NCBI RefSeq assembly: GCF_000242635.2 | Contig: NC_017770.1 | Location: forward strand, 3,174,669-3,238,668 | Direction: 5' to 3' | Length of the DNA: 64,000 bases | Source of the DNA: Solitalea canadensis DSM 3403 | GTDB taxonomy: Bacteria; Bacteroidota; Bacteroidia; Sphingobacteriales; Sphingobacteriaceae | Shown here: positions 20,751 to 40,711 of the stretch, one piece after another | Position numbering within the stretch: the first letter of the stretch is position 1 | Layout: each line of letters opens with the position of its first letter | Made by a program: the position numbers and the translations under genes | Notes under the pieces: model-generated | What the model was told of the DNA's origin: nothing | Databases searched by the model: none | Seen by the model: only the letters and a program-made list of their open reading frames with translations

Positions 20751-22634
20751 ATGAGTTTACATACCATCGACATTGCCATTATCGGCCTTTATCTTTTCCT
20801 GACACTGTTCGTCGGGTTTTACATCTCTCAAAAAGCTTCCAAAGATTTGCAATCCTATTTTCTCGGTGGCAATAATATTAAATGGTATTATTTAGGTTTA
20901 TCAAATGCTTCAGGAATGTTTGACATTTCGGGCATCATGTGGACTGTTTCAATTCTGTTTGTTTACGGATTGAAGAGTGCCTGGATTCCTTGGTTATGGC
21001 CGGTTTGGAATCAGGTTTTTGTATTTGTATTCCTGGCAGCCTGGATGCGTCGGTCAAATACGATGACAGGTGCACAATGGATAACGTTCCGTTTTGGTGA
21101 AGGCCGAGGTTCTACCCTCTCGCATATCATTATTGTAATCTTTGCTGTTATTAGCGTTATCGGCTTTATCGCCTATTTCTTTGAGGGTATTGGCAAATTC
21201 ACCACTACCATACTTCCATGGGATCTATCCACCGATATGTTCGGTTTTCATCTTAGTTCAGAACACGCATACGCCTTAATATTATGTGGTATTACTACTG
21301 TTTATACCATTAAAGGTGGTATGTACAGCGTGGTAGGTACTGAAGTTGTACAATTTGTTATCATGACCATTTCATGTGTGGTTATTGGTTTTATCGCCTA
21401 TAACTCAGTAACTCCAGAACAAATAAACGCGGTTATTCCTGCAGGCTGGAAAGATTTGTTCTTCGGCTGGCATTTGAATCTCGATTGGAGCAATACTCCT
21501 GTACCAAATGTGAACAATAAAATTGGTCAGGATGGATTCGAGATGTTTGGTTTATTATTTATGATGATGCTTTTCAAAGGTATCTTCTCAAGTTTGGCCG
21601 GACCAGTTCCGAGCTATGATATGCAGCGTGTATTATCAACTAAAACAGCTGCCGAAGCTTCTAAAATGAGTGCATCAACAATCCTTGTTCTTTATATGCC
21701 TCGTTATTTAATGGTTGCTGCCTTCGCTGTATTAGGATTGGTTTATATCGGTCCTGAATTAGGAAAAATGGGAGCTACCATTGATTTTGAAAAAATTCTT
21801 CCGGCAGCTATTCAAAAGTTCGTTCCGATCGGCTGGAAAGGACTATTATTAGCAGGTTTATTGGCTTCATTCATGGGTACATTCTCTGCCTTTGTTAATG
21901 CAGCGCCTGCTTATATTGTAAACGACATTTATAAAAAGTATATCAATCCTGATGCAAGCCAAAAGAAATATATACGTCTAAGTTATGTAGCGTCTATTGT
22001 ATTGGTAATTATTGGTGTTAGTGCAGGTTTCTTTACTAAATCATTAAACTCGCTTACTTTATGGCTTACCTCTGCTTTATATGGTGGTTATGCAGCTGCT
22101 AACGTATTAAAATGGATTTGGTGGAGATTTAATGGCTACGGTTATTTCTGGGGAATGTTAGGCGGATTAATTGCGTCAACTACTAAATTATTCCTATTCC
22201 CTGAAATTGTAGATATCTATGTTTTCCCTATTATTCTGCTTTGTTCATTCATCGGTTGTTTCCTTGGAACGTTCTTAACAGCTCCGGAAGACGAAGAAAC
22301 CGTTATGAATTTCTACAAACAAACCCGTCCATGGGGTTTCTGGGGACCAATAAAGAGAAAAGTAATGGAAGCAGATCCTTCATTCTCTCCTAATAAAGAC
22401 TTTAAACGTGATGTATTTAATATTTTAGTGGGTATCGTATGGCAAATGAGCCAGGTGGTTATCCCTATCTATTTCATCCTCAGAGAAAATTATCATTTAG
22501 CAGTTTGGGCTGTCGTATTCTTTGTTACTACCTGGTTATTGAAAAAATACTGGTACGACAAACTCGACGAAACCGAAAACGCTAAAAAAGAAGCAAATGT
22601 TAAATTGGTTGACGAAAGCGTTCCCGTAAATTAA
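20751..22634 (+). CDS. Sodium:solute symporter (SSS family)
   Basis: The 627-residue inner-membrane protein is a sodium/solute symporter (SSF family, LeuT fold) with about 13-14 hydrophobic segments. Typical features are SYFLGGNNIKWYYLGLSNAS at the start, a GMFDISGIMW helix, FVIMTISC in the middle, GLLLAGLLASFMGTFSAFVN near residue 375-390 (Na2-site Ser residues) and a long C-terminal cytoplasmic extension. Related Bacteroidota proteins sit in PULs and import sugars or sialic-acid-like and N-acetylated sugars. It heads the plus arm of PUL 1 and overlaps the next frame by 1 bp if that starts at 22634. The substrate is inferred from the epimerase and ROK regulator of the locus. Confidence 0.88.
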   Translation: MSLHTIDIAIIGLYLFLTLFVGFYISQKASKDLQSYFLGGNNIKWYYLGLSNASGMFDISGIMWTVSILFVYGLKSAWIPWLWPVWNQVFVFVFLAAWMRRSNTMTGAQWITFRFGEGRGSTLSHIIIVIFAVISVIGFIAYFFEGIGKFTTTILPWDLSTDMFGFHLSSEHAYALILCGITTVYTIKGGMYSVVGTEVVQFVIMTISCVVIGFIAYNSVTPEQINAVIPAGWKDLFFGWHLNLDWSNTPVPNVNNKIGQDGFEMFGLLFMMMLFKGIFSSLAGPVPSYDMQRVLSTKTAAEASKMSASTILVLYMPRYLMVAAFAVLGLVYIGPELGKMGATIDFEKILPAAIQKFVPIGWKGLLLAGLLASFMGTFSAFVNAAPAYIVNDIYKKYINPDASQKKYIRLSYVASIVLVIIGVSAGFFTKSLNSLTLWLTSALYGGYAAANVLKWIWWRFNGYGYFWGMLGGLIASTTKLFLFPEIVDIYVFPIILLCSFIGCFLGTFLTAPEDEETVMNFYKQTRPWGFWGPIKRKVMEADPSFSPNKDFKRDVFNILVGIVWQMSQVVIPIYFILRENYHLAVWAVVFFVTTWLLKKYWYDKLDETENAKKEANVKLVDESVPVN

Positions 22635-22648
22635 TGCTTAGGTGTAAA

Positions 22649-23998
22649 ATGAAGAGTACATTGTTAATATCGGCGGGAATTTTGTGTTGTAATTTGGCTG
22701 CCCGGGCTCAACAACCGGTAGCGGCCAAGTTCGACACTACTTTCCATACCACTTATTACGATCAAAAACGTTCATTATTCGAACTGTTGCCAGACACAAA
22801 AAATGAAATCATTTTTTTAGGAAACAGTATTACTGATATAGGTGAATGGGCAGAGTTATTTCAAAATCCGAGTGTTAAAAACCGTGGTATTTCTTCAGAT
22901 ATCACGTTCGGTGTAATTGATAGATTACCAGAGGTCCTATCCTCTAAACCAGCCAAGATCTTTTACATGATCGGCATTAATGATATTGCTAAAAATATTC
23001 CTGATTCGGTTATTTTGGCTAATCATCAGCGCATTGTTTCTATCATTAAGCAACAATCTCCTACTACCAAAATTTACATTCAGAGCCTTTTGCCAACAAA
23101 CAACGAATTTATTGAATTTAAAAGGCATCAAAATAAAACAGAGCATATTATTGCTGTTAATGATGGCTTACGTGAATTGGCAAAAAGAGAACAGGTTACA
23201 TTCATCGACCTGTATCCTAAATTCATAGATGAAAACGGAAAGCTGGATAAAAAATATACCAATGATGGTTTGCATTTAAAAGGCGCAGGCTACATCAAAT
23301 GGGTAAACATTTTAAAGGAGTTGAATTACTGCTGTGATGACACTCCAACCTCGGCAAACGTTTCTGTGTCTGTTTCTTCTGATGTGAATAGAATTGATAC
23401 CAGTTATGCCAACTCACATTACCGTCAGCGACTGGAATTCTTTAAGCACTTACCTAACACTAAAAATGAAATCGTTTTTCTGGGTAACAGTATTACTGAA
23501 ATGGGTGAATGGCAAGAGCTTATTCCTAATAAAAATGTAGTTAATCGCGGTATTAGCGGTGATGTTACCTATGGCATTTATGCTCGTTTGGATGAAGTAC
23601 TCGCATCAAAACCATTAAAACTATTCTTAATGGATGGTGTAAACGACATCAAACGCGGTACGCCTGTTCAGGCTATTGCCGACAATATTCAACGCATTAT
23701 TGAAAAAATTCAAAAGGTATCTCCTAAAACTAAAATTTACCTTCAAAGTACATTACCTGTTAATGAGTCTGTTAAGAGTAGTGCATACGTGAAGGTTTCA
23801 AATGAGAAAATCCAGGAGCTAAATGAGCTGCAAAAAAAACTGGCGAATCAGCTTAACATCACTTACATCGATGTGCAGCACGTTTTATCAGACAGCTTTG
23901 GCCAGTTAAAGCGTGAGTATACCTCAGACGGAATTCATTTAGTGGAGATGGGTTATGTGTATTGGGTTAACTATCTGAAAGAACAAAAATATTTATAG
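22649..23998 (+). CDS. Double-domain SGNH (GDSL) hydrolase
   Basis: The 449-residue exported protein contains two complete SGNH-hydrolase domains in tandem, likely carbohydrate or acyl esterases. Each carries block I as FLGNSIT (first nucleophile Ser about residue 60, second about 280), block III as GINDIAKN or GVNDIKRG, and block V DGLHLKGAGY or DGIHLVEMGY with catalytic Asp-His. The linker (about 235-265) is Ser/Thr-rich. I prefer the ATG at 22649, which gives a clean signal peptide ending AARAQ; the ATG at 22634 overlapping the symporter stop adds five residues. The domain pair resembles the single-domain product of the next gene, indicating tandem duplication and fusion. Confidence 0.85.
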   Translation: MKSTLLISAGILCCNLAARAQQPVAAKFDTTFHTTYYDQKRSLFELLPDTKNEIIFLGNSITDIGEWAELFQNPSVKNRGISSDITFGVIDRLPEVLSSKPAKIFYMIGINDIAKNIPDSVILANHQRIVSIIKQQSPTTKIYIQSLLPTNNEFIEFKRHQNKTEHIIAVNDGLRELAKREQVTFIDLYPKFIDENGKLDKKYTNDGLHLKGAGYIKWVNILKELNYCCDDTPTSANVSVSVSSDVNRIDTSYANSHYRQRLEFFKHLPNTKNEIVFLGNSITEMGEWQELIPNKNVVNRGISGDVTYGIYARLDEVLASKPLKLFLMDGVNDIKRGTPVQAIADNIQRIIEKIQKVSPKTKIYLQSTLPVNESVKSSAYVKVSNEKIQELNELQKKLANQLNITYIDVQHVLSDSFGQLKREYTSDGIHLVEMGYVYWVNYLKEQKYL

Positions 23999-24011: not shown

Positions 24012-24686
24012 ATGAAAAGATCTGTATTAACATGTTTACTTTCCGCTGCTACGATATGGGCTTATGGGCAAGAAAAGCCCATTGACAGCAGCTACGCAAA
24101 TTCACACTATTTGCAACGCTTAGAACTTTTTAAGCAAATGCCTAATCAAAAGAATGAGATTGTTTTTTTAGGAAATAGCATTACAGAGCAAGGTGAATGG
24201 CAGGAGCTTTTTCCGGGAAAACCAATTGTAAACAGAGGTATCGGTGGAGACAATACCTTTGGTTTATTTGCCCGACTGGACGAAGTTTTAGCATCAAAAC
24301 CGGCAAAGATATTCTTGCTAATTGGTGTTAATGATTTAGGAAGAAATCTTCCTCAAGCAGTGACGTTAAACAATTATCGTCGCATTGTGGGAAAAATCAA
24401 GAAAGAGTCGCCTAAAACGCAGTTATATATCCAGAGTATTCTTCCGTTAAATGAAGAAATTCTTAAATATCCTTACATGAAAGGCAAAAACCCGCAGGTT
24501 TTAGCTTTAAATGAAAAATTGGTTGAGCTTGCGAAGGAGTTCAATGTACCGTTCGTCAATGTTTTCAGTGTATTTGCTGATGATAAAAATGAGCTTAAAA
24601 GTGAGGTTACCTTGGATGGAATTCATTTACGACAAGCTGCTTACTTACAGTGGGCCAATTACTTAAAGAGCAATAATTATTTGTAA
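24012..24686 (+). CDS. SGNH (GDSL) hydrolase, single domain
   Basis: The 224-residue exported protein has a signal peptide (about 1-19, ending AYGQ) and one SGNH domain: FLGNSIT (nucleophile S56), GVNDLGRN (block III Asn) and DGIHLRQAAY (catalytic Asp-His). It closely resembles both domains of the preceding protein, sharing YANSHYLQRLELFK at the domain start and DGIHL at the end. Such enzymes remove acetyl or other acyl groups from sugars, which fits a glycan-utilisation operon. The gap to the previous gene is 13 bp and to the next 9 bp. Confidence 0.85.
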   Translation: MKRSVLTCLLSAATIWAYGQEKPIDSSYANSHYLQRLELFKQMPNQKNEIVFLGNSITEQGEWQELFPGKPIVNRGIGGDNTFGLFARLDEVLASKPAKIFLLIGVNDLGRNLPQAVTLNNYRRIVGKIKKESPKTQLYIQSILPLNEEILKYPYMKGKNPQVLALNEKLVELAKEFNVPFVNVFSVFADDKNELKSEVTLDGIHLRQAAYLQWANYLKSNNYL

Positions 24687-24695
24687 AAGATAACG

Positions 24696-25631
24696 ATGAA
24701 GATTACAGGAACTTTTTTGGATGAAATATCGCATGATATTCCACATCAGAACTGGGGCAGAAAAGAATGGGATGCCGATTTTCAACACATGAAAAATGTT
24801 GGTATCGACACCGTTATTTTAATACGGTCGGGATACCGGAAATTTATCACCTACCCTTCTGACTATTTAATAAAACAGTATGGCTGCTATCAACCACCAG
24901 TTGATCTTGTAGAACAGTTTTTGGAGTTGTCAGATAAGCACGGCATGAACTTCTACTTCGGTTTATATGATAGCGGACATTATTGGGACAGCGGTGATAT
25001 GACTACCGAAATTGACAGTAATCGTCATGTGATTGATGAAGTTTGGCAAAAATATGGCAACCATGAAAGTTTCAAAGGTTGGTATCTGAGCATGGAAATC
25101 AGTCGCCGCACAAAAGGTGCCATCGAAGCATTCCAAAAACTTGGACAACAGTGCAAAGATGTAAGCGGAGGGCTTCCTACTTTAATTTCACCATGGATTG
25201 ATGGTAAAAAGGCCGTTATGGCAGCTTCAGGGCAGTTAACCAAAGCGGATGCGGTTTCATTGAAGGAGCATGAATCGGAATGGAGTGAAATTTTTGATGG
25301 AATTAAAGGTGTTGTTGATGCAGTAGCTTTTCAGGATGGTCATATTGATTACCATGAATTGCAAGACTTTTTTGAGGTAAATAAAAAGATGGCGGACAAG
25401 TTCGGTTTGCAATGCTGGACCAATGCTGAATCTTTTGACCGTGATATGCCGATAAAGTTCTTGCCTATCAAATTTGAAAAACTAAGATTAAAACTAGAAG
25501 CAGCCAGAAAAGCAGGTTATGACAAAGCGATAACTTTTGAGTTTTCGCATTTCATGAGTCCTCAATCATCTTACTTGCAAGCAGGACATCTATATAATCG
25601 CTATCAGGAATACTTGAAAGAACTACTATAG
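24696..25631 (+). CDS. DUF4434-type TIM-barrel protein, putative glycosidase-like
   Basis: The 311-residue product resembles the DUF4434 family, a TIM-barrel of glycoside-hydrolase-like character. It begins with the family pattern GTFLDEISHDIPHQNWGRKE and has GMNFYFGLYDSGHYW, FKGWYLSMEISRR (a strand ending in Glu), and VDAVAFQDGH (a strand ending in Asp), in the places where retaining glycosidases carry catalytic carboxylates. No signal peptide is visible, unlike the neighbouring SGNH and GHL10 proteins, so it is probably cytoplasmic and would act on an imported product. It lies 9 bp after the SGNH gene. The activity is not established. Confidence 0.75.
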   Translation: MKITGTFLDEISHDIPHQNWGRKEWDADFQHMKNVGIDTVILIRSGYRKFITYPSDYLIKQYGCYQPPVDLVEQFLELSDKHGMNFYFGLYDSGHYWDSGDMTTEIDSNRHVIDEVWQKYGNHESFKGWYLSMEISRRTKGAIEAFQKLGQQCKDVSGGLPTLISPWIDGKKAVMAASGQLTKADAVSLKEHESEWSEIFDGIKGVVDAVAFQDGHIDYHELQDFFEVNKKMADKFGLQCWTNAESFDRDMPIKFLPIKFEKLRLKLEAARKAGYDKAITFEFSHFMSPQSSYLQAGHLYNRYQEYLKELL

Positions 25632-25737: not shown

Positions 25738-26937
25738 ATGCAATACGCAGAACTATATAAAAATGAACTATTAGAAAACGTTATTCCGTTTTGGTTAAAA
25801 CATTCTAAAGATGAAGAGGACGGAGGATTTTACACTTGCCTTGATCGTTTCGGAAATGTTTACGACACCGATAAGTTTGTTTGGCTTCAAGGCCGTGAGG
25901 TATGGATGTTCTCCATGCTTTACAACAATGTTGAAAAGCGTGCAGAATGGTTAGAAATGGCCGAACATGGTGCCAAATTTCTTAAAACTCATGGCAAAGA
26001 TGATGAAGGCAACTTCTATTTTTCATTAACTAAAGAAGGAAAACCGTTAATTGAACCATACAATATCTTCTCTGATTGTTTTGCGGCAATGGCATTCGGA
26101 GCTTTGCATAAAGCCTCTCCAAATCCTGAGTATGAAAAATTAGCCCGCGATACGTTTAATAATATTGTGGCACGCCAATACAACCCTAAAGGAAAATGGA
26201 GTAAAGCTTATCCTGGAACCCGCAATTTGAAAGGTTTCTCATTACCAATGATCTTATGTAATCTTTCATTGGAATTAGAGCATATCCTTGGACCTGATAA
26301 AGTAAATGAATTTCTGCCAACAGTTATTCATGAGGTTATGGAAGTTTTCTATCAGCCTGATAAAGGACTTATTCTGGAGAATGTCTATGAAGATGGTTCG
26401 TTCTGCGACTCATTTGAAGGCCGATTATTAAATCCTGGTCATACCATTGAAGCAATGTGGTTCATCATGGATCTGGCTGTTCGTATCAATGATAAAAAGC
26501 TTATTGATCAGGCTATCAAAATTACCCTACGTACCCTTGAAAAAGGTTGGGACAACGAGCATGGAGGCATCTTCTATTTCCTTGATGTAAACGGACATGC
26601 GCCGCAACAGTTAGAGTGGGATCAGAAACTATGGTGGGTACATATAGAAACTATGATCACTCTTGCAAAAGGTTGGAAATTAACCGGAAATGCAGAATGT
26701 GAACGTTGGTTTAAAATCGTACACGATTATACATGGAAAAACTTCAGAGATGCTGAGTATGGCGAATGGTTTGGTTACCTGAACCGTCAGGGAGAAGTTT
26801 TATTAAATATGAAAGGTGGAAAATGGAAAGGTTGTTTCCACATTCCGAGAGGATTATATCAATTATGGAAAATCTTCGAAGACTTTAACCACGAAGTAGC
26901 TGACGAACAACAGTCCGTTTTAAATTCAGCCTCTTAA
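25738..26937 (+). CDS. AGE-family epimerase (N-acylglucosamine 2-epimerase-like)
   Basis: The 399-residue cytoplasmic protein has the (alpha/alpha)6-barrel of the AGE superfamily, which interconverts GlcNAc/ManNAc or other sugar epimers. Landmarks are DRFGNVYDTDKFVWLQGREV, YNIFSDCFAAMAFGAL, NPGHTIEAMWFIMDLA (catalytic His) and QKLWWVHIETM with the second active-site His. Length fits the 390-420-residue family. Without the sugar specificity one cannot choose between N-acylglucosamine 2-epimerase and cellobiose or mannose epimerase; the locus, with its NagC-like regulator and NagX-like protein, favours an N-acyl amino sugar. It follows 106 bp after the DUF4434 gene. Confidence 0.87.
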   Translation: MQYAELYKNELLENVIPFWLKHSKDEEDGGFYTCLDRFGNVYDTDKFVWLQGREVWMFSMLYNNVEKRAEWLEMAEHGAKFLKTHGKDDEGNFYFSLTKEGKPLIEPYNIFSDCFAAMAFGALHKASPNPEYEKLARDTFNNIVARQYNPKGKWSKAYPGTRNLKGFSLPMILCNLSLELEHILGPDKVNEFLPTVIHEVMEVFYQPDKGLILENVYEDGSFCDSFEGRLLNPGHTIEAMWFIMDLAVRINDKKLIDQAIKITLRTLEKGWDNEHGGIFYFLDVNGHAPQQLEWDQKLWWVHIETMITLAKGWKLTGNAECERWFKIVHDYTWKNFRDAEYGEWFGYLNRQGEVLLNMKGGKWKGCFHIPRGLYQLWKIFEDFNHEVADEQQSVLNSAS

Positions 26938-27005: not shown

Positions 27006-27881
27006 ATGAAAAAGTACCTATTACTGCTGTTTGTATCGGTAATTGCCTGTAAATCATTTGCACAGGCAAGATTTAATGTTGTTGAATATGCTGTAAAAAA
27101 TACAGATACGCTTTGGATGCACCATTATAAACCAAAAGTTAGCAATGGTATCTCCATTTTATTTGTTCATGGAGGAGGATTTGAGGGTGGAAAACCTATA
27201 AACCAAGCCCCATTCGCTGAAAAAATGCAGGATTTGGGATACAATGTTTTTGTAATAAAATACCGTTTACTACAGGCAGGAAGAGGTTTCGGTTGTGATA
27301 TTCCAACCCCTGAAAAATTAAAAGCCATCAGAGCAGCAATTGAAGATGCGGCTGATGCAACAAAATACATTGTAGCACATGCACAGTCTTTTGCTATTGA
27401 TCCTTCAAAGATTTTCGTATCAGGAAGCAGTGCAGGTGCCGAGGTTGCTTTACAAATCGTTTACAATCCATTCGCAAAGGCTGATAAGGAGCGGTATGCT
27501 TTTTTTGACACATTTAAGTTTAAAGGCTTAATGTCATTTGCAGGAGCTGTAGTAGATATTAACCTGGTAACTAAAGAAAAATCAGTTCCGATGCTGCTTG
27601 CCCATGGTTCAAACGATCAGGTTGTTCCTTACGGAACCGCTCCGCACCGCATGTGTAATGCTACACAGCCAGGTTGGTTAATGTTCTTTGGAGATAAAAC
27701 GGTGTATGAAAGAGCAGTGATTTTAAAAATTCCTGCAGTATTATATACTTATACAGGTGCAGGACATGAAATCGCAAGCTTTATGTTCAATGAATTTGCT
27801 GCTATGGATGATTTCATGAAAAAAGTAACCAAAGGTGAGACATTAAAAACTCACGAGATCATAAAAAAAACTAAGTGGTAG
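27006..27881 (+). CDS. Alpha/beta-hydrolase esterase (exported)
   Basis: The 291-residue product has a signal peptide (about 1-20, ending CKSFAQ) and an alpha/beta-hydrolase fold of the BD-FAE/acetyl esterase kind. HGGG (55-58) forms the oxyanion hole, GSSAG (140-144) carries nucleophile S142, D204 in GSNDQVVPYG and H254 in GAGHE complete the triad. Such esterases remove acetyl or feruloyl groups from glycans. It is in the plus arm of PUL 1, 68 bp after the epimerase gene, and is the fourth acyl-hydrolase domain of the locus, implying a heavily acylated substrate. Confidence 0.85.
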   Translation: MKKYLLLLFVSVIACKSFAQARFNVVEYAVKNTDTLWMHHYKPKVSNGISILFVHGGGFEGGKPINQAPFAEKMQDLGYNVFVIKYRLLQAGRGFGCDIPTPEKLKAIRAAIEDAADATKYIVAHAQSFAIDPSKIFVSGSSAGAEVALQIVYNPFAKADKERYAFFDTFKFKGLMSFAGAVVDINLVTKEKSVPMLLAHGSNDQVVPYGTAPHRMCNATQPGWLMFFGDKTVYERAVILKIPAVLYTYTGAGHEIASFMFNEFAAMDDFMKKVTKGETLKTHEIIKKTKW

Positions 27882-27999: not shown

Positions 28000-29103
28000 A
28001 TGAAGAGATTATTTGTATGCTTACTATTGATAGTTCAGGGCCTTGCGACTAATGCTCAAAATGCTCAGCAACAACCTGAACCCATTAAAGGCGTTTGGCT
28101 AACAAACGTAGCAAGTGAAGCTTTAAATTCCCGGGAAAATATCCGCTCTGCTGTTGAGCTATGTGTCCAATCTGGCATCAACAATATTTACGTAGTTACC
28201 TGGAATAGAAGCCGCACCTTATACCCAAGTAAGATCATGAAAAAGGAATTCGGTATTCCAATCATGGAAAAGTTTGCAGGCAGAGATCCACTAAAAGAAG
28301 TCATTGAAGAAGCTCATAAAAAAGGAATTAAAGTGCATGCCTGGTTTGAATTTGGGTTTTCGAGTTCTTACAATGAACAAGGTGGAATGATCCTCAAAAA
28401 GCATCCTGAATGGGCTGCTATTGATCCGGATGGAAAACTTGTAAACAAAAACAAGTTCGACTGGATGAATGCTTTTGATCCAAAGGTTCAAAACTTTATG
28501 CTCTCACTAATCCTTGAGGTTGTTAAGAATTATGATGTGGATGGTATTCAGGGTGACGATCGTTTACCGGCCGTTCCTTCTCTGGCCGGATATGACAAAT
28601 ACACAGTTTCACTTTACAAGAAAGAACATAACGGACAAGAACCTCCTAAAGATTATAAGGATGCCGCATGGATCGACTGGAGAGCTAACCTGCTCAATCA
28701 ATTCATGAAACGCTTGCATGATAAAGTAAAATCTGCTAATCCTAAGGTATTGGTTACGATGGCTCCAAGTATTTTCCCATGGAGTAAAGAAGAATACTTG
28801 CAAGATTGGCCTACATGGGTTAAGAACGGCTGGGTTGATTATATCATTCCGCAGGTTTACCGTTACAATATCAAAGCGTATGCTGAAACGTTGGAAAGCA
28901 ATATCAGTTATATGCCTGAAGATAAGCGTTGGATGTTTTGTCCGGGCATTTTGCTTCAGGTAGATAGTCACACTCCGCAGGGAGATTTCCTGCAACAGAT
29001 GATTGATGAAAATAGGAAGTTGGGATTTAAAGGTGAGGTTTTCTTCTTCTTCGAAGGCTTAAAAAAGCACCCTGATTTCTTCAAGACCTACAAAAATAAG
29101 TAG
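28000..29103 (+). CDS. Family-10-like glycosyl hydrolase (GHL10), exported
   Basis: The 367-residue product has a signal peptide (about 1-19) and a TIM-barrel of the putative glycosyl hydrolase-like family 10 (DUF187, YngK-like). Features: PIKGVWLTNVASEALNSREN opening strand, IYVVTWNRSRTLYPS, IKVHAWFEFGF, YDVDGIQGDDRL with acidic residues at the barrel edge, and VDYIIPQVYRYNIKAYAE. Most family members are uncharacterised; cell-wall glycans or other amino-sugar polymers have been suggested. It ends the plus arm of PUL 1, followed by a terminator 36 bp later, and has a distant relative in the minus arm (30944-32275). Confidence 0.85.
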   Translation: MKRLFVCLLLIVQGLATNAQNAQQQPEPIKGVWLTNVASEALNSRENIRSAVELCVQSGINNIYVVTWNRSRTLYPSKIMKKEFGIPIMEKFAGRDPLKEVIEEAHKKGIKVHAWFEFGFSSSYNEQGGMILKKHPEWAAIDPDGKLVNKNKFDWMNAFDPKVQNFMLSLILEVVKNYDVDGIQGDDRLPAVPSLAGYDKYTVSLYKKEHNGQEPPKDYKDAAWIDWRANLLNQFMKRLHDKVKSANPKVLVTMAPSIFPWSKEEYLQDWPTWVKNGWVDYIIPQVYRYNIKAYAETLESNISYMPEDKRWMFCPGILLQVDSHTPQGDFLQQMIDENRKLGFKGEVFFFFEGLKKHPDFFKTYKNK

Positions 29104-29138
29104 CATACGATTGGAAGTCTTAATTGCACTATTTTATG

Positions 29139-29167
29139 GGCGGACACAAGGTGTTCGCCTTTTTTTT
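29139..29167 (+). terminator. Strong terminator of the PUL 1 plus arm
   Basis: GGCGGACAC and GTGTTCGCC form a 9-bp stem with one G-T pair and a 3-nt loop, followed by eight T residues. It begins 36 bp after the stop of the glycosidase gene. Confidence 0.9.
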
Positions 29168-29204
29168 ACCTCATCCCCGGCCCTTTTCCTCAAGGAGAAG
29201 GGAG

Positions 29205-29400: not shown

Positions 29401-29466
29401 TATAAAGATGTAATAGCACTATCGTAAAAGTCCCACTCCTTTAGGAGAGGGACTTAGGGTGAGGTC

Positions 29467-32378: not shown

Positions 32379-34199
32379 TTAGTAACCGTTTTGAGTTAGG
32401 TTAGGATTCAGGTTACGCTCAGCTTGTGGAATTGGCCACAAATAGAACTTATTATCCCAGAAACGTGAACGGTCACGAACTCTTAATTTACTTCCGTATG
32501 CCGAGTAATCTGCTATGTCATTTAAATCATGACGAGCTGATTTTTTGAAACTAGGAACCATATCAGCAGTAGCATTATCATAACCACCACCAACTGGATT
32601 ACCGCTTGCATCATACACAATTGCCCCATTATTACGTGTTACATCGGGATAGCCATAAGTAGGTGAATCGTTTTCGATATCACCAGTTTTCCATCTGCGC
32701 ATATCAAATAAGTGCAAACCTTCACGCGCTAATTCCACTTTACGCTCACGACGAACTAATTGACGAGTTTTATCAGCATTACCAATTACTTCAGTTGCTA
32801 CATCAGGCATTTTAACACGTCTTCTTACAGTATTAATCGCATCATACAAAGTACCATCTAATTCACCTAATTCAGTTTTAGCCTCAGCATAGGTTAACAA
32901 TACTTCAGAGTAACGCATTAATACCCAGTTATAAGTAGCCTGGTGAATAACTTCATCATCCCAGTTATTGTATTTTTTCCAAAGGAATCCAACACCACTG
33001 TTAGCCATACTAGTCCATGCAGCGGCACTGTTGATATCAGCATTTGCTTTACTAGCCCAAGTGTTAGTAGTGTAATTATAGAAAGGAGTGTTGGCTCTGT
33101 AAATATCAGCAATGAACTTCACTCTGCTACCACCGTTACCAATTACTGTATCACCATGCGCCCAAACAGTTGCTTTTAATCGAGGATCACGATTTTCAAA
33201 TGGCTTTTTAGGATTGTACAGTGGAGATTCATCAATACGTTTACCGTCTTTACACTCATAAGTATCAACCAATAATTGAGTTGGAAAACGACCTGACTGT
33301 CCATAATTTCTTGAACACTCTCCATAAGAAATATAGTGCATGTTTTTAGACCCTTGATCAGAGAACATTACTTCAAACATGTTTTCACTTCTACTGGCTG
33401 CAGAAGCTTGTCCAGCCCTGGTAAATAAAGCATCAAAGTTTGGATTTAGTGTTCTACCTCCATTATCTATTACACTTTTAGCAGCATCACGGGCAATTTT
33501 CAAATAATCTGATGATTTTTCACCTATATTTAAACTACCAGCCAAAAGTGCATAACGTGCTCTTAACCCTTGAGCAACGGCTCTGTCTACCCTACCCCAT
33601 TCTGTAGATTTCCAGGCAAGATCAGAAGAAGCTGACTCAAGTTCACTTAAAATAAAGTCAATTACTTCCTTTTGAGGAGTACGGGAAACTTTCAGGTCAT
33701 CATTACCTGCAGCTTTTTTAAACAATGGAACATCTCCATAAAGAGATACAAGATTTCCGTACATAAAAGCACGCAGGACTCTCACTTCAGCAACATACTG
33801 CTTAGCTTTTGCCGTTAAAGTTGAGGTATATGGCTCTGATCCATCTAAAACTGAATTGCATCTAGCAATTGCTTTATAACAATTTGACCAAACAGTCAAG
33901 ACAGTACCATTATCAGGGTTTAACCCACCCCCAGCACCTAGTGATGAATTTTCTGTACGTTCAATACCCATAGGTGTGTAATGGTCAAAGAAAACGTACT
34001 GCGGAACTAATGTTCCAGATATTTGACAACCAACTAATTGATACGCTCCTGTTGTTCCCTGCTTAATAGCAGCTTCGCTTTTATAGAAGCCCTCTTCAGC
34101 ACCAGCAGGATAATCTGTTATTGATTCGCGGTCAAGATAATTCTGACAAGAAGACATTAATAGTCCTACAGCAATTAATCCTGTTATATATCGTTTCAT
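32379..34199 (-). CDS. RagB/SusD-family glycan-binding lipoprotein (PUL 1)
   Basis: The 606-residue lipoprotein (LMSSC, Cys 18) is a SusD homologue: the surface lid that binds glycan and delivers it to its SusC transporter. The SusD N-terminal TPR region is evident in NYLDRESITDYPA and YKAIARCNSVLDG, followed by YVAEVRVLRAFMYGNLVSLYGDVPLF, the family's most conserved block, and a C-terminal RRKVELAREGLHLFDMRRW and FYLWPIPQAERNLNPNLTQN motif. It follows SusC by 24 bp. At 606 residues it is on the long side, suggesting insertions around the binding surface. Confidence 0.93.
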   Translation of the reverse strand: MKRYITGLIAVGLLMSSCQNYLDRESITDYPAGAEEGFYKSEAAIKQGTTGAYQLVGCQISGTLVPQYVFFDHYTPMGIERTENSSLGAGGGLNPDNGTVLTVWSNCYKAIARCNSVLDGSEPYTSTLTAKAKQYVAEVRVLRAFMYGNLVSLYGDVPLFKKAAGNDDLKVSRTPQKEVIDFILSELESASSDLAWKSTEWGRVDRAVAQGLRARYALLAGSLNIGEKSSDYLKIARDAAKSVIDNGGRTLNPNFDALFTRAGQASAASRSENMFEVMFSDQGSKNMHYISYGECSRNYGQSGRFPTQLLVDTYECKDGKRIDESPLYNPKKPFENRDPRLKATVWAHGDTVIGNGGSRVKFIADIYRANTPFYNYTTNTWASKANADINSAAAWTSMANSGVGFLWKKYNNWDDEVIHQATYNWVLMRYSEVLLTYAEAKTELGELDGTLYDAINTVRRRVKMPDVATEVIGNADKTRQLVRRERKVELAREGLHLFDMRRWKTGDIENDSPTYGYPDVTRNNGAIVYDASGNPVGGGYDNATADMVPSFKKSARHDLNDIADYSAYGSKLRVRDRSRFWDNKFYLWPIPQAERNLNPNLTQNGY

Positions 34200-34223: not shown

Positions 34224-37200
34224 TTAAAATTTAGCATCTAATCCCAAAGTGATGGTTTTCATAATTGGATAGAATTCACCACCATAGTTTCCGCTAACGC
34301 TAATCTCTGGATCATAGCCTTTATAGAAATTACTTAGTGTGAATAAGTTCTGTCCACTCACATAGAATCTTAACTTACTAACTTTAACACGATTAGTTAA
34401 TGCTGCAGGTAATGTATAGCCTACAACAATATTTTTTAAACGCATGTATGAACCGTCTTTGATCCATTTGCTAGAAGCCTGATAATTAGGAGTAGAAGCT
34501 TCATTAATCAATAATAATGGATATTCAGCATTCGGATTTTCAGGCGTCCAGGTATCCAACTGATTGGTATAAATTGTACCACCGGTAAAGAATGGTCTAA
34601 CACCCATACCAGCGATATATGTATCTTTTTTGCCAACGCCTTGAACAAATACGGTTAAATCAAATCCTTTATATTCAGAAGTTAAATTTAATCCATATTC
34701 ATAACGAGGGAACGGATTTCCTAAAATTACACGATCTCTTGAGTCAATAACGCCATCAGGTACACCATTTGGACCACTGATATCTCTATATTTTACAAAA
34801 CCTGGTTTTACTACAGCTCTGTTGCCGTATACAGGGGAAGCATTAATTTCTTCCTGAGTTTGAAAATATCCTTCAGCAATGTATCCGTAGTAAGCACCAT
34901 AGGGTTCGCCTTCCTTATGAATTGTTGATCCGAAATCGTAAACCTGACCATTTAAATTATCAATTTTGTTCTTAACATCAGATAAGCTCAAAGTAACACC
35001 ATATTTAAATTCATTAATACGGTTGTTATGTCCTATCGCAATCTCCCAGCCTTTATTTTCCATTGAACCAAGGTTTTGCCAAGATGGATCTAAACCAACG
35101 TATATCGGAATCTTTAATTTTTGTAATGAGCGTTCTATTTTACGTACATAATAGTCACCTGTAAATGTTAGCTTCCCATTAAAGAAATCTGCATCTAATC
35201 CAATATCCAGCTGAGTCGAACGTTCCCATGAAATAATAGGATTTGATAATTCTGTTGGAGCAAAACCTGAACTTAATTGTTTGTCAAACCAATAACTATA
35301 TTGAGGATCGGCTATTAGCAAAGAAGTGTATGGATAAAAAGATTCTACTCCATTAAATGTAAGATCTTGATTACCTAATTCTCCATAAGAAGCTCTAAGT
35401 TTAATGTTATCAACATATTTTTTAGTAAACTCCATAAAGGGCTCATCACTTACTCTCCATCCAACTGAAGCAGATGGGTAAAAACCCCACCTGTTATCAC
35501 TACCAAATCTTGAGGAACCATCATAACGTGCATTTAACTCTAATAAATATCTTCCTTTATAATCGTAATTTGCACGACCATATAATGAAGCCATAGCCCA
35601 TTCAGATTGACCTCCAGAGTTTGAAGCAGTGCTACCCTCTCCATTATTCAGGTCTTCGAAACCAGGGAAGTAATACTTAGACCTACCGGCAGTTGTATAC
35701 TTAATTGTATTATCCTCAGCTTGTCCACCAGCCATAACTTTAATATTATGTTTATCAATAGCTGTGTTGTATGAAGCTTGAACTCTGTATAAATTTCTTA
35801 CGATTCTGTTGAATGACTCTGAACCTATTGCATCGCCAGGATAGGTTGAACGGAATGTACCGTTTTCATACGTATCATAAGGAGCGATGAATGTTGAAGT
35901 ATTCGCTGTGAAAACTCTTTTTGCAAAATTACCTTGTAATTCTAACCCTTTAACAGGATTTACAAACAAAGTTCCATTAAAGGTAACATCAGGAGAGTTT
36001 TTCTCTTTTGCACCAGATGCAGCAACTATAGCAGCGGGGTTGTCACCATTTTGTCCATACCCCCAGGTACCATCATTATTAACACCTGAAAATACAGGAA
36101 CAAAATTTAATGCTTTATTAAAAATGGTTTTCGGAGAAGATAAACCAGGTTCAACAGAGTTACCTTGTTTAACATTTACGTCAAATGTACTCTTAACCCA
36201 TTTGTTAAATTTAACATCTGTATTTAAGCGTAAGTTAAAACGTTCGTAACTGTTATTATTGATCAAACCTTTTTGCTTCATGTAATTACCACTTGCAAAG
36301 TAAGTGATGTTGTCACTTCCTCCGTTTATAGTAAGCGCGTAGTTCTGTAAAGGAACATTTTTCTGAACCACTAATGAACGCCAGTCAGTATCAAAACGAG
36401 TCATATTATCAGCTCCTTCATTAATGTACTGATCTATTAATGCCTGAGAATACTGAGGGTTTTCCTTGTTATTTACTTTAGCCTGGTTAACCGCTCTCAT
36501 ATAATCAACTGCAGAAACAGGAGTAGGTAACTCTGTAGGATTCTGAACTGAATAATAAGAGCTAAACCCAACATTTAATCCCTGTTTACCACGTTTGGTA
36601 GTGATTAACACCACACCATTTGCTGCACGCGATCCGTAGATTGAAGCCGATGCCGCATCCTTAAGAATAGAGATCGACTCTACTGTATTCATGTCCACAT
36701 CATCCATGTTGCTTTCTACTCCATCCACTAAAATCAAAGGAAATGTTTTAGAGAACATAGAGCTTTGACCACGAATTCGGATATTACCACCGTCAGCACC
36801 TGGCTGGCCAGAACCTTGCTGTACGGTAACACCCGGAGCAATACCTTGTAATGCAGCTGTAGCACTAGTAACAGGTCTTGTTAAAAGCTCTTCACCTTTA
36901 ATGGCTGTTAAAGCACCGGTAAGATTTTCTTTCTTTTGTTTACCATAACCTACAACAACTACTTCACCCAATTCTTTGGAATCAATTTCCATTGCGATGT
37001 TGTAGATATTACCTGAACCAAGTTTAACCTCGCGTGCTTTAAAACCGACAAAGGTAAAAAGCAATGTAGTTCCACTTTCAGGCAACCTGATTGAGTACTT
37101 ACCATTAGCATCGGTAACTGTACTTGCACTTGATCCTTTTACAATTACTGTAACGCCTGGCAATGGCATGCCATCCTCTTTATCGGTAATTGTTCCGCTG

Positions 37201-37304
37201 ATGATGCGTGTTTGTGCAGACACAAACTGAACTTGACAGATGAGCGAAAACAGTAGGAGCATTAATCCTACAAGTTTCCGTTTTCTTGTAAAAATTTGTT
37301 TCAT
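34224..37304 (-). CDS. SusC/RagA-family TonB-dependent transporter (PUL 1)
   Basis: The 1026-residue outer-membrane transporter begins with a signal peptide (ends VSAQ, about 31), a carboxypeptidase-regulatory-like Ig domain (ISGTITDKEDGMPLPGVTVI to about 110), a TonB-box-like region (ELGEVVVVGYG), the plug (LQGIAPGVTVQQGSGQPGAD, IRGQSS, DAASASIYGSRAANGVVLIT) and a 22-strand barrel ending YPIMKTITLGLDAKF. It lacks an N-terminal STN signalling domain, so it is not expected to talk to an anti-sigma factor, in line with the ROK regulator of the locus. It is the second gene of the minus arm, 27 bp after the FAD oxidoreductase. Confidence 0.95.
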   Translation of the reverse strand: MKQIFTRKRKLVGLMLLLFSLICQVQFVSAQTRIISGTITDKEDGMPLPGVTVIVKGSSASTVTDANGKYSIRLPESGTTLLFTFVGFKAREVKLGSGNIYNIAMEIDSKELGEVVVVGYGKQKKENLTGALTAIKGEELLTRPVTSATAALQGIAPGVTVQQGSGQPGADGGNIRIRGQSSMFSKTFPLILVDGVESNMDDVDMNTVESISILKDAASASIYGSRAANGVVLITTKRGKQGLNVGFSSYYSVQNPTELPTPVSAVDYMRAVNQAKVNNKENPQYSQALIDQYINEGADNMTRFDTDWRSLVVQKNVPLQNYALTINGGSDNITYFASGNYMKQKGLINNNSYERFNLRLNTDVKFNKWVKSTFDVNVKQGNSVEPGLSSPKTIFNKALNFVPVFSGVNNDGTWGYGQNGDNPAAIVAASGAKEKNSPDVTFNGTLFVNPVKGLELQGNFAKRVFTANTSTFIAPYDTYENGTFRSTYPGDAIGSESFNRIVRNLYRVQASYNTAIDKHNIKVMAGGQAEDNTIKYTTAGRSKYYFPGFEDLNNGEGSTASNSGGQSEWAMASLYGRANYDYKGRYLLELNARYDGSSRFGSDNRWGFYPSASVGWRVSDEPFMEFTKKYVDNIKLRASYGELGNQDLTFNGVESFYPYTSLLIADPQYSYWFDKQLSSGFAPTELSNPIISWERSTQLDIGLDADFFNGKLTFTGDYYVRKIERSLQKLKIPIYVGLDPSWQNLGSMENKGWEIAIGHNNRINEFKYGVTLSLSDVKNKIDNLNGQVYDFGSTIHKEGEPYGAYYGYIAEGYFQTQEEINASPVYGNRAVVKPGFVKYRDISGPNGVPDGVIDSRDRVILGNPFPRYEYGLNLTSEYKGFDLTVFVQGVGKKDTYIAGMGVRPFFTGGTIYTNQLDTWTPENPNAEYPLLLINEASTPNYQASSKWIKDGSYMRLKNIVVGYTLPAALTNRVKVSKLRFYVSGQNLFTLSNFYKGYDPEISVSGNYGGEFYPIMKTITLGLDAKF

Positions 37305-37331: not shown

Positions 37332-39209
37332 TTAATTTTTTATCGTTCCGTTGAAATCAACAGGGATTTCAAATGGATTTAAATAGTGATCGAGTAATAC
37401 TGATATGTTTCTTCTGTTTAAGATTAATGAATTGGAAAATTGTTCTTTTAATGATAATGATGACCAATCGGCCTTGATTTTTTCTAAGGATATAGTTGGA
37501 TTAACTACTTGTAAAATAGCCACTAATGATTCAGGAGTTAATGATTCACCTGATGCCTGCCAGTAGTTTTTATACTGTGAGTAGATTGGTCTTAAGCCCG
37601 AAACTAACTCGTACTGACTAACACTGTTTTCTGGGTAGAACCAAGTTTGGTTTGCCCATTTATAAGGAACGCCTACTCCTTTAATAATACCGGTTGCACC
37701 GATTTTCTGGATGGTAGCAAAATGAGGATCAGTTGGTTTTACATCAAAAAACGGCATCAAGTAAGCATTTGATGCTAAAAGTGCTTCTTGCACTTTTCTA
37801 ATGTCGATATCTTTAGGCTGAACATTAGTTTTTGCAGCGGTAGCTGCTAATGCTCCCGCTGCCTGGCCGATTCCTAAAACAACTGGCTGTAAACGAGAAG
37901 CCCCATTAACAATATTACTTACACTAATGCTTTTTTCTGCAACGATTAATCCATCCACACCTTGTGGCACTAATGAACCTAATGGAATATTATAAGCCGG
38001 AACTTTAATCCGGATAAAGTCGATTGAAGGAGCATCTGGACGCTTTAAGTGGTGGTGATCAATTGGATAATCTCCAACGGCTACACCAGTGCGGTAATAA
38101 GCGTCTTTCTGATTATAAGGATCAGCCACATGATTTACGGTTAAAAATGCCATTCCTTTTACTCTGCGCGATTCACGGTGATAAGGAATCATTGGAAGTT
38201 TGTCGGCAGTTGGATATTCATCATCCGCAATCCCCAAATTTTTATACCCTAATTCGGTTTGCATATAATAAAGGAAACGGAGGGTATGTAATTTAGCTTC
38301 TTTTAAAGCCGCCTCCCGTTCTTCTCTACTTTTCTCGATAATGTTTAAATAAATATCATTACCATCTCTAGGCCAGTTGATCATGTATTTATTATTTGGC
38401 AGATGACCATACTGCAACATTTTAAAGCAGTTATTATTCGGATCCTCAAATGACGAAGGATCTGAAACATCGCAACAAATTGCAAACGCCGCTTTATCAT
38501 AGCCTGCTGGTTTTTTAATGGTTTTATCGGCTCCTTTACCATAATCTTTCAGAGTAACTACATAGGTAATGTCCTGAATAATGTCATTTGCTTTTTCAGG
38601 TGCTAATTCTTCACCGGTATCAAAGCGACTATCCATACCTATGGAGTATTTTGCGCCCGCAGCTGCCATTATATCACCAAGTTCGGTTGCATCAATAACT
38701 ATTTTAGCTTCAATGATCTTAACTTTTTTCCCCTCAGTAACCTTTACAGTCCACTGATTATTCTGATAGATGGTCGATTGAACAATTGTTTTGTACCAAA
38801 CAGAAAGTTTGGATTCTTTAGCTACCATCTCTTTAAAAATCTTGTTAGCTACAGATGGCTCAAAAAGTGTGTTACTTACCCAGCCTGTTTCTACAGCCTT
38901 CGGACCACCATAGTAGTTATACAATTTTTGACGGAACTCTCCCCATAAGCCAGAAGGCATATTATGATTACCATCAATTGCGGTTACACCTGCGGAAGTA
39001 AGCATACCTCCTAACCATTCGGTTTCTTCAACTATTAACGTTGAAGACCCCATACGTGCCGACTGGAGTCCGGCCATTGTACCACTTGCTCCTCCTCCAA
39101 TTATTAAAACATCGGTCTTAACTGACTGTGCATTTGCAAATAATTGAGAAGCGACTAATGTAGTGCTGAGTATTATCCTTACCAGAGATAGCTTAATGTT
39201 CATTTTCAA
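37332..39209 (-). CDS. FAD-dependent oxidoreductase, exported (FAD_oxidored family)
   Basis: The 625-residue product has a signal peptide (about 1-28) and a two-dinucleotide-fold flavoprotein of the FAD_oxidored (PF12831) type: TDVLIIGGGASGTMAGLQSA (GxGxxG 38-43), VEETEWLGGMLTSAGVTAID, VIDATELGDIMAAAGAKY, and a C-terminal IDIRKVQEALLASNAYLMPF block. Members are common in Bacteroidota and Planctomycetota PULs, often misannotated as xanthan lyase. It is the first gene of the minus arm of PUL 1, with susC 27 bp downstream. It may oxidise a sugar or sugar acid in the periplasm. Confidence 0.85.
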   Translation of the reverse strand: MKMNIKLSLVRIILSTTLVASQLFANAQSVKTDVLIIGGGASGTMAGLQSARMGSSTLIVEETEWLGGMLTSAGVTAIDGNHNMPSGLWGEFRQKLYNYYGGPKAVETGWVSNTLFEPSVANKIFKEMVAKESKLSVWYKTIVQSTIYQNNQWTVKVTEGKKVKIIEAKIVIDATELGDIMAAAGAKYSIGMDSRFDTGEELAPEKANDIIQDITYVVTLKDYGKGADKTIKKPAGYDKAAFAICCDVSDPSSFEDPNNNCFKMLQYGHLPNNKYMINWPRDGNDIYLNIIEKSREEREAALKEAKLHTLRFLYYMQTELGYKNLGIADDEYPTADKLPMIPYHRESRRVKGMAFLTVNHVADPYNQKDAYYRTGVAVGDYPIDHHHLKRPDAPSIDFIRIKVPAYNIPLGSLVPQGVDGLIVAEKSISVSNIVNGASRLQPVVLGIGQAAGALAATAAKTNVQPKDIDIRKVQEALLASNAYLMPFFDVKPTDPHFATIQKIGATGIIKGVGVPYKWANQTWFYPENSVSQYELVSGLRPIYSQYKNYWQASGESLTPESLVAILQVVNPTISLEKIKADWSSLSLKEQFSNSLILNRRNISVLLDHYLNPFEIPVDFNGTIKN

Positions 39210-39238
39210 TACATAAATATGACACCACTAATTAAAAA

Positions 39239-39253
39239 TTATTTTTATTAAAA
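39239..39253 (+). promoter_or_regulatory. Candidate ROK operator between FAD oxidoreductase and ROK genes
   Basis: TTATTTTTATTAAAA is identical to the site upstream of the symporter gene (20680-20694) and here continues to TAAA, giving an imperfect TTATTTT/AAAATAA palindrome. It lies 30 bp before the oxidoreductase start. A related AATTTTTATTAAAA occurs at 40720-40733. Confidence 0.4.
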
Positions 39254-39481
39254 TAAAAATCTTTTTAATATTATTTTAAAAGTAAGAAATAGAAAATAAA
39301 ATTATTGACTAACTGTGAAAACAGTTTGCCTGTAAAAGACACTATTGGTAGAATATTTAAGTGATGCTTAAGAAAGTGAGAGGAAAGACTCCGTAAATCT
39401 TTTTAATTTTTTTAAAAAATACAACTATCTTCGTCTTTTAAAACAAAAACTTTACATACTCAGGGTACTATAATAATAACG

Positions 39482-40711
39482 ATGATTGCTGCAAACACCT
39501 TTTTTGAAGAACTTCACAATGAAAACATTTCAGGGGTAGCATATAAAAACCTTGATCTGAAGAAAAAAACCATAGCACATTTTGCGACTATTGGTAATGC
39601 TACCATTGCTGATCTATGCAAAGAACTAAATTCAAGTGCTCCCAAAGTCACTACCTTAATTAATGAACTGATAAAAGATAACCTCGTTCAGGATTATGGT
39701 AAAATTGACTCCACCGGAGGTCGCCGCCCTAATCTTTATGGGTTAGCTCCGGAAGCGGGTTTCTTTTTAGGTGTCGAAGTTCGCAAATATCATATTAATA
39801 TTGGCCTGATTGATATTAAAAAGAACCTTGTAAAGTTATCAGAAAAAATTCCATACAGGCTAAATAATTCGCAAGAATCTTTGGATGAGCTCTGCAACGT
39901 TATTCAGCATTTTATAAATGAACTGCCTATTTCAAAGGATAAGATTCTTGGAATGGGAATTAACCTTTCAGGAAGGATCAATTTTGCGACTGGTTATAGT
40001 TATAGCTATTTCTATTTTAATGAAGAACCTTTAAACAAAGTAATAGAGGCTCGCATTGGCATTAAAACCCTTCTTGAGAACGACTCACGTGCTATGGCTT
40101 ATGGCGAGTTTTGTTCAGGAGCGGTGAATGAAGAAAAGAATGTATTATTCATTAACCTGGATTACGGTATTGGTATGGGCGTTTTGATCAACGGTCAGCT
40201 TTATTATGGTAAATCTGGTTATTCGGGTGAATTTGGTCACATTCCTTTTTTCAACAATGAAATTATTTGCCATTGCGGTAAAAAAGGATGCCTTGAAACT
40301 GAAACTTCAGGAGAAGCGTTGGTTCGCATGTTTCAGAAAAAATTGCAAGAAGGTTCTTCCAGTATTGCCACTGTAACCAAAGCTCCCGAAGAAATTCAGC
40401 TGGAGGATATTCTGCAGGCAGCCATTAATGATGACGTTTTATCTATTGAACTTTTAGCTGAAATAGGTGAAAAAATTGGCCGTGGTATAGCTTTATTGAT
40501 CAATATTTTTAACCCTGAACTGGTAATCATCGGTGGTAGTATTTCTTCAACCGGCAATTATATCCAATTACCAATCAGAAGTGCTTTGAATAAGTATTCG
40601 TTAAGCCTTGTAAATAATGATACGCAGTTAAAACTTTCGAAACTGGGATCAAAAGCCGGTATTATGGGCGCATCTCTCCTTGCAAGAAATAAAATATTGT
40701 CTTTGAATTAA
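39482..40711 (+). CDS. ROK-family transcriptional regulator (NagC/Mlc-like)
   Basis: The 409-residue protein combines an N-terminal winged helix (about 20-90: GNATIADLCKELNSSAPKVT, then GGRRPNLYGL) with a ROK sugar-kinase-like domain. ROK signatures are GMGINLSGRI, LENDSRAMAYGEF, GIGMGVLINGQLYYGKSGYS with GEFGH (E250, H253), and the zinc motif CHCGKKGCLE (C263, C265, C270). Repressors of this kind release DNA on binding a sugar or sugar phosphate such as GlcNAc-6-P or ManNAc. It is divergent from the minus arm of PUL 1 and shares an upstream A+T-rich region with candidate operators. Confidence 0.93.
   Translation: MIAANTFFEELHNENISGVAYKNLDLKKKTIAHFATIGNATIADLCKELNSSAPKVTTLINELIKDNLVQDYGKIDSTGGRRPNLYGLAPEAGFFLGVEVRKYHINIGLIDIKKNLVKLSEKIPYRLNNSQESLDELCNVIQHFINELPISKDKILGMGINLSGRINFATGYSYSYFYFNEEPLNKVIEARIGIKTLLENDSRAMAYGEFCSGAVNEEKNVLFINLDYGIGMGVLINGQLYYGKSGYSGEFGHIPFFNNEIICHCGKKGCLETETSGEALVRMFQKKLQEGSSSIATVTKAPEEIQLEDILQAAINDDVLSIELLAEIGEKIGRGIALLINIFNPELVIIGGSISSTGNYIQLPIRSALNKYSLSLVNNDTQLKLSKLGSKAGIMGASLLARNKILSLN

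Follow-up and report, generated by a model that had tools for sequence, protein, structure and literature searches.

A SusCD locus of Solitalea canadensis carrying DUF4434 and an N-acylglucosamine 2-epimerase, with a candidate role in amino-sugar glycan use among Bacteroidota

Examining a 64,000-nucleotide stretch of contig NC_017770.1 from Solitalea canadensis DSM 3403 (hereafter the window, whose genome is a single contig of 5.2 Mb), we describe a polysaccharide utilization locus (PUL) of 13 genes lying between positions 20751 and 40711. This locus combines a SusC/SusD pair with a barrel protein of the DUF4434 family and an N-acylglucosamine 2-epimerase (AGE), two genes whose association across Bacteroidota carries the interpretation proposed here. 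A previous reading made without database searches (the sequence-only reading) had presented the locus as an undescribed system for the uptake of a heavily acylated amino-sugar glycan, cleaved by uncharacterised barrels.

Gene content of the locus

The 13 genes, all open frames, form two converging arms and a divergent regulator, as the sequence-only reading had laid them out, with Pfam and NCBIfam names agreeing with the gene labels throughout; export and location calls were made by reading the N-termini by eye. The rightward (plus-strand) arm begins with a sodium:solute symporter family transporter (SSS; 20751-22634; PF00474 (SSF), 94 bits), whose relatives, 50-73% identical, adjoin DUF4434 in sister loci. 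It continues with an exported protein bearing two SGNH hydrolase domains (22634-23998; PF13472 (Lipase_GDSL_2) in two stretches), an exported SGNH hydrolase providing a third such domain (24012-24686; PF13472, 93 bits), the DUF4434 protein (24696-25631; PF14488, 286 bits), AGE (25738-26937; GlcNAc_2-epim, 245 bits), an exported alpha/beta hydrolase of BD-FAE esterase type (27006-27881; PF20434, 67 bits) and an exported GHL10 barrel (28000-29103; PF02638, 231 bits). The arms meet at 29104-29466. The leftward (minus-strand) arm runs from an exported FAD-dependent oxidoreductase (37332-39209; PF12831 (FAD_oxidored), 347 bits, with a C-terminal region beyond the Pfam match) through SusC, a TonB-dependent transporter (34224-37304; PF07715 (Plug) and PF13715 (CarbopepD_reg_2)), SusD (32379-34199; PF07980 (SusD_RagB), 168 bits) and a GHL10 barrel joined to DUF4985 (30944-32275; PF02638, 65 bits, and PF16373, 154 bits) to a DUF5009 membrane protein (29467-30930; PF16401, 236 bits). 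Divergent from the flavoprotein gene stands a ROK regulator (39482-40711, plus strand; PF00480, 194 bits; 186 bits on the NagC model, below its cut-off of 650). Signal-peptide-like N-termini were seen in the SGNH proteins, the esterase, GHL10 and the flavoprotein, and lipoprotein-like ones in SusD and GHL10-DUF4985, while DUF4434 and AGE carry neither. With SusC and SusD adjacent, and ROK, GHL10 and esterase genes linked to them as in SusCD-type PULs, this is a SusCD locus, and one or more of its enzyme families have no assigned activity. None of its 13 products matches a classical glycoside hydrolase (GH) family of Pfam, GHL10 and GHL6 being "glycosyl hydrolase-like" models, in keeping with what had been claimed from sequence alone.

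Removal of acyl groups, also proposed at that stage, is supported by the three SGNH domains and the esterase, and by a Bacteroides-genus sister locus (L111:14061-16751) in which a SASA acetylesterase domain, GHL10 and DUF4985 are naturally fused in one protein of 897 residues (Pfam); this fusion suggests that deacetylation and the barrel may act on one substrate. Both GHL10 proteins have Cwp19 (5oq2) as solved relative (E 3.6e-17 for the exported barrel and 1.4e-4 for the other). This GHL10 protein has a measured lytic transglycosylase activity (PMC6016235), which makes it a characterised member of the family, and its structure has the usual strand-7 glutamate replaced by a glycine that is conserved in GHL10 (PMC5765458). 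Equating GHL10 with GH179 was rejected, GH179 being listed among NAD-dependent families in PMC11701701.

In the DUF5009 protein, an acyltransferase candidate of the HGSNAT/NagX type, D31 and R34 (a DxxR motif) and H59 are conserved at no less than 97% in 32 sequences, H59 being a candidate counterpart of the catalytic histidine of HGSNAT. According to the excerpted text of PMC12423673, DUF5009 proteins intermix with the HGSNAT clade, none of them with an experimentally confirmed function. Fitness data led to the proposal that NagX, an HGSNAT relative, N-acetylates periplasmic glucosamine (PMC9007349). By analogy, DUF5009 would fit an amino sugar carrying a free amine. The flavoprotein was modelled with a pLDDT of 87.7; assigning its function by fold was abandoned, the search returning just flavoprotein folds of a general kind (Z at most 19.9, with 287 of 625 residues aligned). 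Between its gene and that of the ROK regulator lies a perfect, AT-rich palindrome of 18 bp (39239-39256), which has no conserved counterpart in the ROK intergenic regions of 19 sister loci. A shared ROK operator was also rejected, as the best 18-mer common to the two promoter regions (16 matches) fell within the range of 30 shuffles (14-16).

DUF4434, its recurrence and its association with AGE

The DUF4434 protein is predicted to fold as a (beta/alpha)8 barrel (model pLDDT 89), and its orthologue BT_0435 of Bacteroides thetaiotaomicron is represented by a crystal structure, 4h41, labelled at deposition a putative alpha-L-fucosidase (E 4e-164; Z 46.8, rmsd 1.5, 308 aligned residues). The next fold neighbours are Cwp19 (Z 21.4), GH5 mannanases and GH164 beta-mannosidases (about 20), GH42 and beta-amylase (about 19) and GH1 (18.5). 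Members of the GH-A clan carry catalytic glutamates after strand 4 and after strand 7; E134 and E245, invariant together with E282 in 17 DUF4434 sequences (48-80% identical to the window's), follow strands 4 and 7 of the predicted barrel and may correspond to these. As modelled, the fold is GH-A-like, and the reading frame, of just 314 codons, leaves no room for a hidden signal peptide in this proposed cytosolic glycosidase.

Searching for DUF4434 elsewhere yielded matches in 16 of 296 sampled Bacteroidota genomes (E 1e-20 or better, window genome included), in 29 of 80 genomes of a Bacteroides-genus sample (E 1e-50) and in 2 of 72,556 plasmid records. The gene neighbourhood was read, with at most 10 kb on each side, in 80 named loci, which are the 80 top-ranked of at least 568 confirmed matches and so favour close relatives (lengths fall below 15 kb in 17 of them, and a simple open-reading-frame caller recovered the DUF4434 gene in 75). 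Its partners there were AGE (45 loci), GHL10 (43), SGNH (33), DUF5009 (31), SusC with SusD (28), the flavoprotein (27) and ROK (27), and more rarely GH92 (12), NAGPA (10), NagB (9), metallophosphoesterase (8) and GH20 (7), with a transporter of one of three types in 65 (SSS 17, AmpG-like 15, sugar-porter major facilitator superfamily (MFS) 33). The periphery of this cassette is variable and the window's exact combination is rare, SSS, SGNH, DUF4434, AGE and FAD oxidoreductase occurring together in 2 of the 63 loci of at least 15 kb (L020 and L037). Overlapping gene sets around DUF4434 recur in other Bacteroidota, which is more than chance, and with their presence in sister loci and in the BT_0435 neighbourhood the earlier view of a candidate undescribed system is corrected: the set is not a one-off. 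For instance, the Bacteroides-genus locus L111 is ordered (labels by similarity) DUF4434, MFS, AGE, SusC, SusD, DUF5018, NAGPA, GHL10, metallophosphoesterase, SASA-GHL10-DUF4985 fusion and DUF5009, and an annotated B. finegoldii record ROK, DUF4434, MFS, AGE, hypothetical protein, SusC, SusD, DUF5018, DUF4855, alpha-N-acetylglucosaminidase, GH3 and SGNH. GH89 was rejected as a core partner: PF05089 matches occur in 22 of 48 cassette-bearing genomes and not in that of the window, and where both positions were compared the nearest to DUF4434 lay at about 19 kb (G238) and 28 kb (G367).

Several side observations concern these loci. Bacteroides-genus genomes such as G363, G349 and G357 have, within about 4 kb of the first DUF4434 gene, another paralogue with 63-64% identity to the window's, and ADP-ribosylglycohydrolase-fold proteins are encoded in two Bacteroides-genus cassette neighbourhoods (L112:8231-9778 and L114:16075-17592). 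One locus filed as plasmid (L132, NZ_OY725913.1) carries thrS, infC, rpmI and rplT and is probably a chromosome fragment.

The export signal of DUF4434 changes with the type of transporter: no twin-arginine (Tat) signal was found in 30 of 30 loci with an SSS or AmpG-like transporter, versus a Tat-like signal in 31 of 31 loci with a sugar-porter MFS, and loci with no recognised transporter were divided (3 with a Tat-like signal, 11 with none), start codons being possibly wrong in some cases (e.g. L024). This split runs partly along clades, but Tat and MFS are also found together in three Flavobacterium loci and a Chitinophagaceae metagenome-assembled genome (L060, L065, L067 and L074). It may be read as a single reaction that is set before or after the inner-membrane step, as expected if the glycosidase acts on the transported sugar.

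The window AGE scores 675 bits on the AGE equivalog NF052547 (cut-off 600), against 66 as cellobiose epimerase and 44 as mannose isomerase; its H235 and H368, presumably the two catalytic histidines, align with histidines of 2gz6 (E 1.7e-163) and are conserved in 43 sequences. AGE points to N-acetylmannosamine (ManNAc). An AGE match (E 1e-60) was found in 16 of 16 DUF4434-positive and 25 of 280 negative genomes of the phylum sample, and an AGE above cut-off in 23 of 29 positive and 3 of 51 negative genomes of the Bacteroides sample (Fisher p of 9e-16 and 1e-11, both too small by reason of shared ancestry), the two genes starting no more than 21 kb apart in 11 of the 16 phylum-sample positives. 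Four of the six Bacteroides exceptions carry a lower-scoring AGE within the cassette (G357) or elsewhere (G322, G401), or an AGE fragment beside DUF4434 (G376). The AGE score class was rejected as a strict cassette marker, since AGE above cut-off is mostly cassette-linked in Bacteroides but adjoins NAL and BNR_2 matches in G134.

Two genomic homes of AGE can be told apart, with and without the sialic-acid lyase family of N-acetylneuraminate lyase (NAL). A NAL-like gene accompanies it in 16 of 20 AGE stretches that lack DUF4434, versus 1 of 110 DUF4434 stretches (L100), where NAL-like means a tblastn match (E 1e-8, at least 180 residues) to three lyases that score best with the NAL model, under its cut-off of 281 bits (145, 131 and 131), and lower as DapA (112, 99 and 85). 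The 110 stretches (L019-L098, L100-L108, L110-L129, these last being 20 from 10 genomes, and L132) represent about 100 loci and include duplicates among stretches or genomes (L051 and L101 on the same contig; G230 = G357; G238 = G362). The other home was sampled by 12 Bacteroides loci with a lower-scoring AGE, chosen out of about 28 such rows with preference for long contigs, and by L134 and L146-L152, taken for an AGE that lies apart from DUF4434. AGE and the NAL-like gene are not neighbours in L149, L150 and L152, about 2.6-7 kb separating them. Sialic-acid (nan) loci can also hold AGE, SGNH and SusCD, and ROK relatives at seven nan-type AGE stretches of the NAL-like group are 48-51% identical to the window's regulator, falling among the regulators of Bacteroides DUF4434 loci (FastTree leaf order, without support values). 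In the window genome, the sole NAL/DHDPS-family match is DapA, so that NanA cannot feed AGE there, and a sialidase search limited to PF13088 (BNR_2) gave no match; NagA and NagB are present. On this gene content, a nan locus was rejected for this genome and the ordinary NanA-dependent sialic-acid route cannot be the one used, barring a lyase of another family or a sialidase that PF13088 does not cover.

A proposed sialic-acid-independent amino-sugar route and its alternatives

The amino-sugar theme of the sequence-only reading holds through AGE, which passes its equivalog cut-off, and through D31, R34 and H59 of DUF5009; NAGPA, NagB and GH20, known from sister loci, and the alpha-N-acetylglucosaminidase of Bacteroides relatives also agree with it, but lie outside the window's locus. 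This theme was probably right in kind, and is narrowed here to a sialic-acid-independent route through ManNAc and N-acetylglucosamine (GlcNAc). Our leading interpretation, to which we tentatively give somewhat less than an even chance, is that of a Bacteroidota PUL for a glycan of O-acylated ManNAc/GlcNAc type whose use does not involve sialic acid, with DUF4434 where NanA would stand. It builds on the genes, their recurrence, the co-presence of DUF4434 and AGE, the lack of a NanA or BNR_2 match in a genome with NagA and NagB, and the export signal that changes with the transporter; the enzymatic steps, the direction of AGE and the glycan are proposals, and the locations follow the calls made by eye. 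The GHL10-DUF4985 lipoprotein and SusCD would capture and import fragments, from which the SGNH proteins and the esterase would strip acyl groups in the periplasm, with trimming or oxidation by the exported GHL10 and the flavoprotein and N-acetylation of free amino groups by DUF5009. The SSS symporter would then take up a small N-acetylhexosamine (HexNAc) glycoside, which DUF4434 would hydrolyse in the cytosol to release ManNAc, and AGE would convert ManNAc into GlcNAc, onward via NagA and NagB, the ROK regulator possibly sensing a sugar of this route. If true, Bacteroidota possess a sialic-acid-independent entry to ManNAc/GlcNAc catabolism, through an enzyme family that lacks an assigned activity but already has a crystallised member in B. 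thetaiotaomicron (4h41). Related gene sets occur in other Bacteroidota, gut species included.

Several observations weigh against this interpretation. The predicted fold of DUF4434 does not fix its substrate specificity, and GH92, present in 12 of the 80 loci, equally fits a mannose-containing glycan. The association with AGE is loosened by the non-independence of related genomes, by 35 of the 80 loci that have no AGE in the stretch read, by distances of 0.8 Mb (G134) and 1.6 Mb (G269) between AGE and DUF4434 and their location on separate contigs in three genomes, by the remaining two Bacteroides exceptions, in which DUF4434 is present and no AGE match was found (G324, G350), and by three Bacteroides-genus stretches with ROK, MFS, AGE and SusCD that lack DUF4434. 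Moreover, L100 (G230:C5:18000-37000) holds two DUF4434 genes, a flavoprotein and a lower-scoring AGE together with the NAL-like gene, and is, from its gene content, apparently a join of the two AGE homes.

A bolder version, which we regard as unlikely, makes DUF4434 the founder of a glycosidase family releasing ManNAc (an N-acetyl-beta-mannosaminidase) ahead of AGE, in a cassette that harvests bacterial wall or capsule polymers. Beta-ManNAc occurs in teichoic-acid linkage units and secondary cell-wall polysaccharides. GHL10 would cut such polymers, SGNH would remove their esters and DUF5009 would re-acetylate free glucosamine, while in sister loci NAGPA and metallophosphoesterases would open phosphodiesters. 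ManNAc-containing polymers would account together for AGE, for the esterases and for the phosphodiester glycosidases that sister loci carry.

Recovery of peptidoglycan and N-acetylmuramic acid (MurNAc) is a rather improbable alternative, in which GHL10 proteins would be lytic transglycosylases like Cwp19, their solved relative, the transporter would take wall sugars and DUF4434 would resemble NagZ. A distant AmpG relative (114 bits, cut-off 350) is indeed the transporter in 15 of the 80 sister loci, the window genome has two MurQ matches above cut-off, and NagX is reported to share a remote kinship with a putative MurNAc transporter of T. forsythia (PMC9007349). However, this alternative leaves AGE unexplained, the window's own transporter is of the SSS and not the AmpG-like type, and MurQ, rejected as a marker, does not discriminate, being found in 37 of 38 cassette-bearing genomes with the negatives not searched. 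Use of eukaryotic N-glycans or phosphoglycans from hosts, fungi or protists, with DUF4434 acting like a beta-mannosidase on the Man-GlcNAc core, appears improbable too. It is in line with the GH164 and GH5 enzymes among the nearest DUF4434 folds after Cwp19, with GH92, NAGPA and GH20 in some sister loci and with the finding of BT0439 protein in cells grown on galacto-oligosaccharides and human milk oligosaccharides (PMC5238430), but it has no need for AGE, the window's locus has none of GH92, NAGPA and GH20, and GH1, GH42 and other families lie within a few Z units, making the fold unspecific.

Slightly less probable still is an epimerase acting on another N-acyl or neutral sugar in the use of a ManNAc-free glycan, such as a de-N-acetylated GlcNAc polymer re-acetylated by DUF5009. 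The AGE superfamily does include cellobiose epimerases and mannose isomerases, and the lack of a confirmed function for DUF5009 leaves room for it, but the window AGE lies above the threshold for N-acylglucosamine epimerases and has much lower scores on the other two models. Lastly, a nan locus or its remnant is hardly credible, despite L100 with its DUF4434, AGE and NAL-like genes and the kinship of the ROK regulators, as neither NanA nor a BNR_2 match was found in the window genome and 109 of the 110 DUF4434 stretches are without a NAL-like gene.

Around the locus, three leftward genes with no Pfam match directly follow the ROK gene (40741-43018), then comes a second SusC locus (43196-53280, annotated up to 50528) with a LacI regulator (43196), DUF3472-DUF5077 (44450), a GH109-type Gfo/Idh/MocA protein (45892) and a SusC-type gene (47509). 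At 10764-15312, two consecutive TPR-histidine kinase genes are followed by a LuxR-type response regulator.

Comparison with known systems

A match to a PUL of known substrate, which the sequence-only reading had set as a refuting check, was not found in the material searched. The literature search, which left most subscription papers outside, named no substrate for this gene set, gave no paper for mannosaminidases, and had DUF4434 and DUF4985 in none of the 10 papers returned for the domain families of the locus. Closest among known systems is the region around BT_0435 in B. thetaiotaomicron (about BT0433-BT0454), compared here by published listing rather than DNA, with the membership of BT_0435 in the operons of that region inferred from locus numbers. 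In the available part of a transcriptome study (PMC10434189), this region includes an alpha-N-acetylglucosaminidase (BT0438), SusCD (BT0439-40), DUF5009 (BT0446), two family 10 glycosylhydrolases (BT0447 and BT0449), a second SusD (BT0451), a metallophosphoesterase and an MFS transporter. As far as that listing goes, DUF4434, SusCD, DUF5009 and family-10-like genes are common to both loci, whereas BT0438, a DUF4855 protein and the sugar-porter MFS are particular to the B. thetaiotaomicron region, and SSS, the three SGNH domains and the FAD oxidoreductase to the window.

The other likenesses concern single components. The window's DUF5009 protein sits in a SusCD locus, its family mixing with the HGSNAT clade of the NagX/HGSNAT acetylation systems in the accessible sources. 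With Cwp19 it is the GHL10 domain that is shared, at the sequence level, one of the two window proteins additionally bearing DUF4985. Finally, AGE and a related ROK regulator are shared with the nan loci of Bacteroidota, but where those rely on NanA, the window genome, with no NanA or BNR_2 match, has DUF4434 instead.

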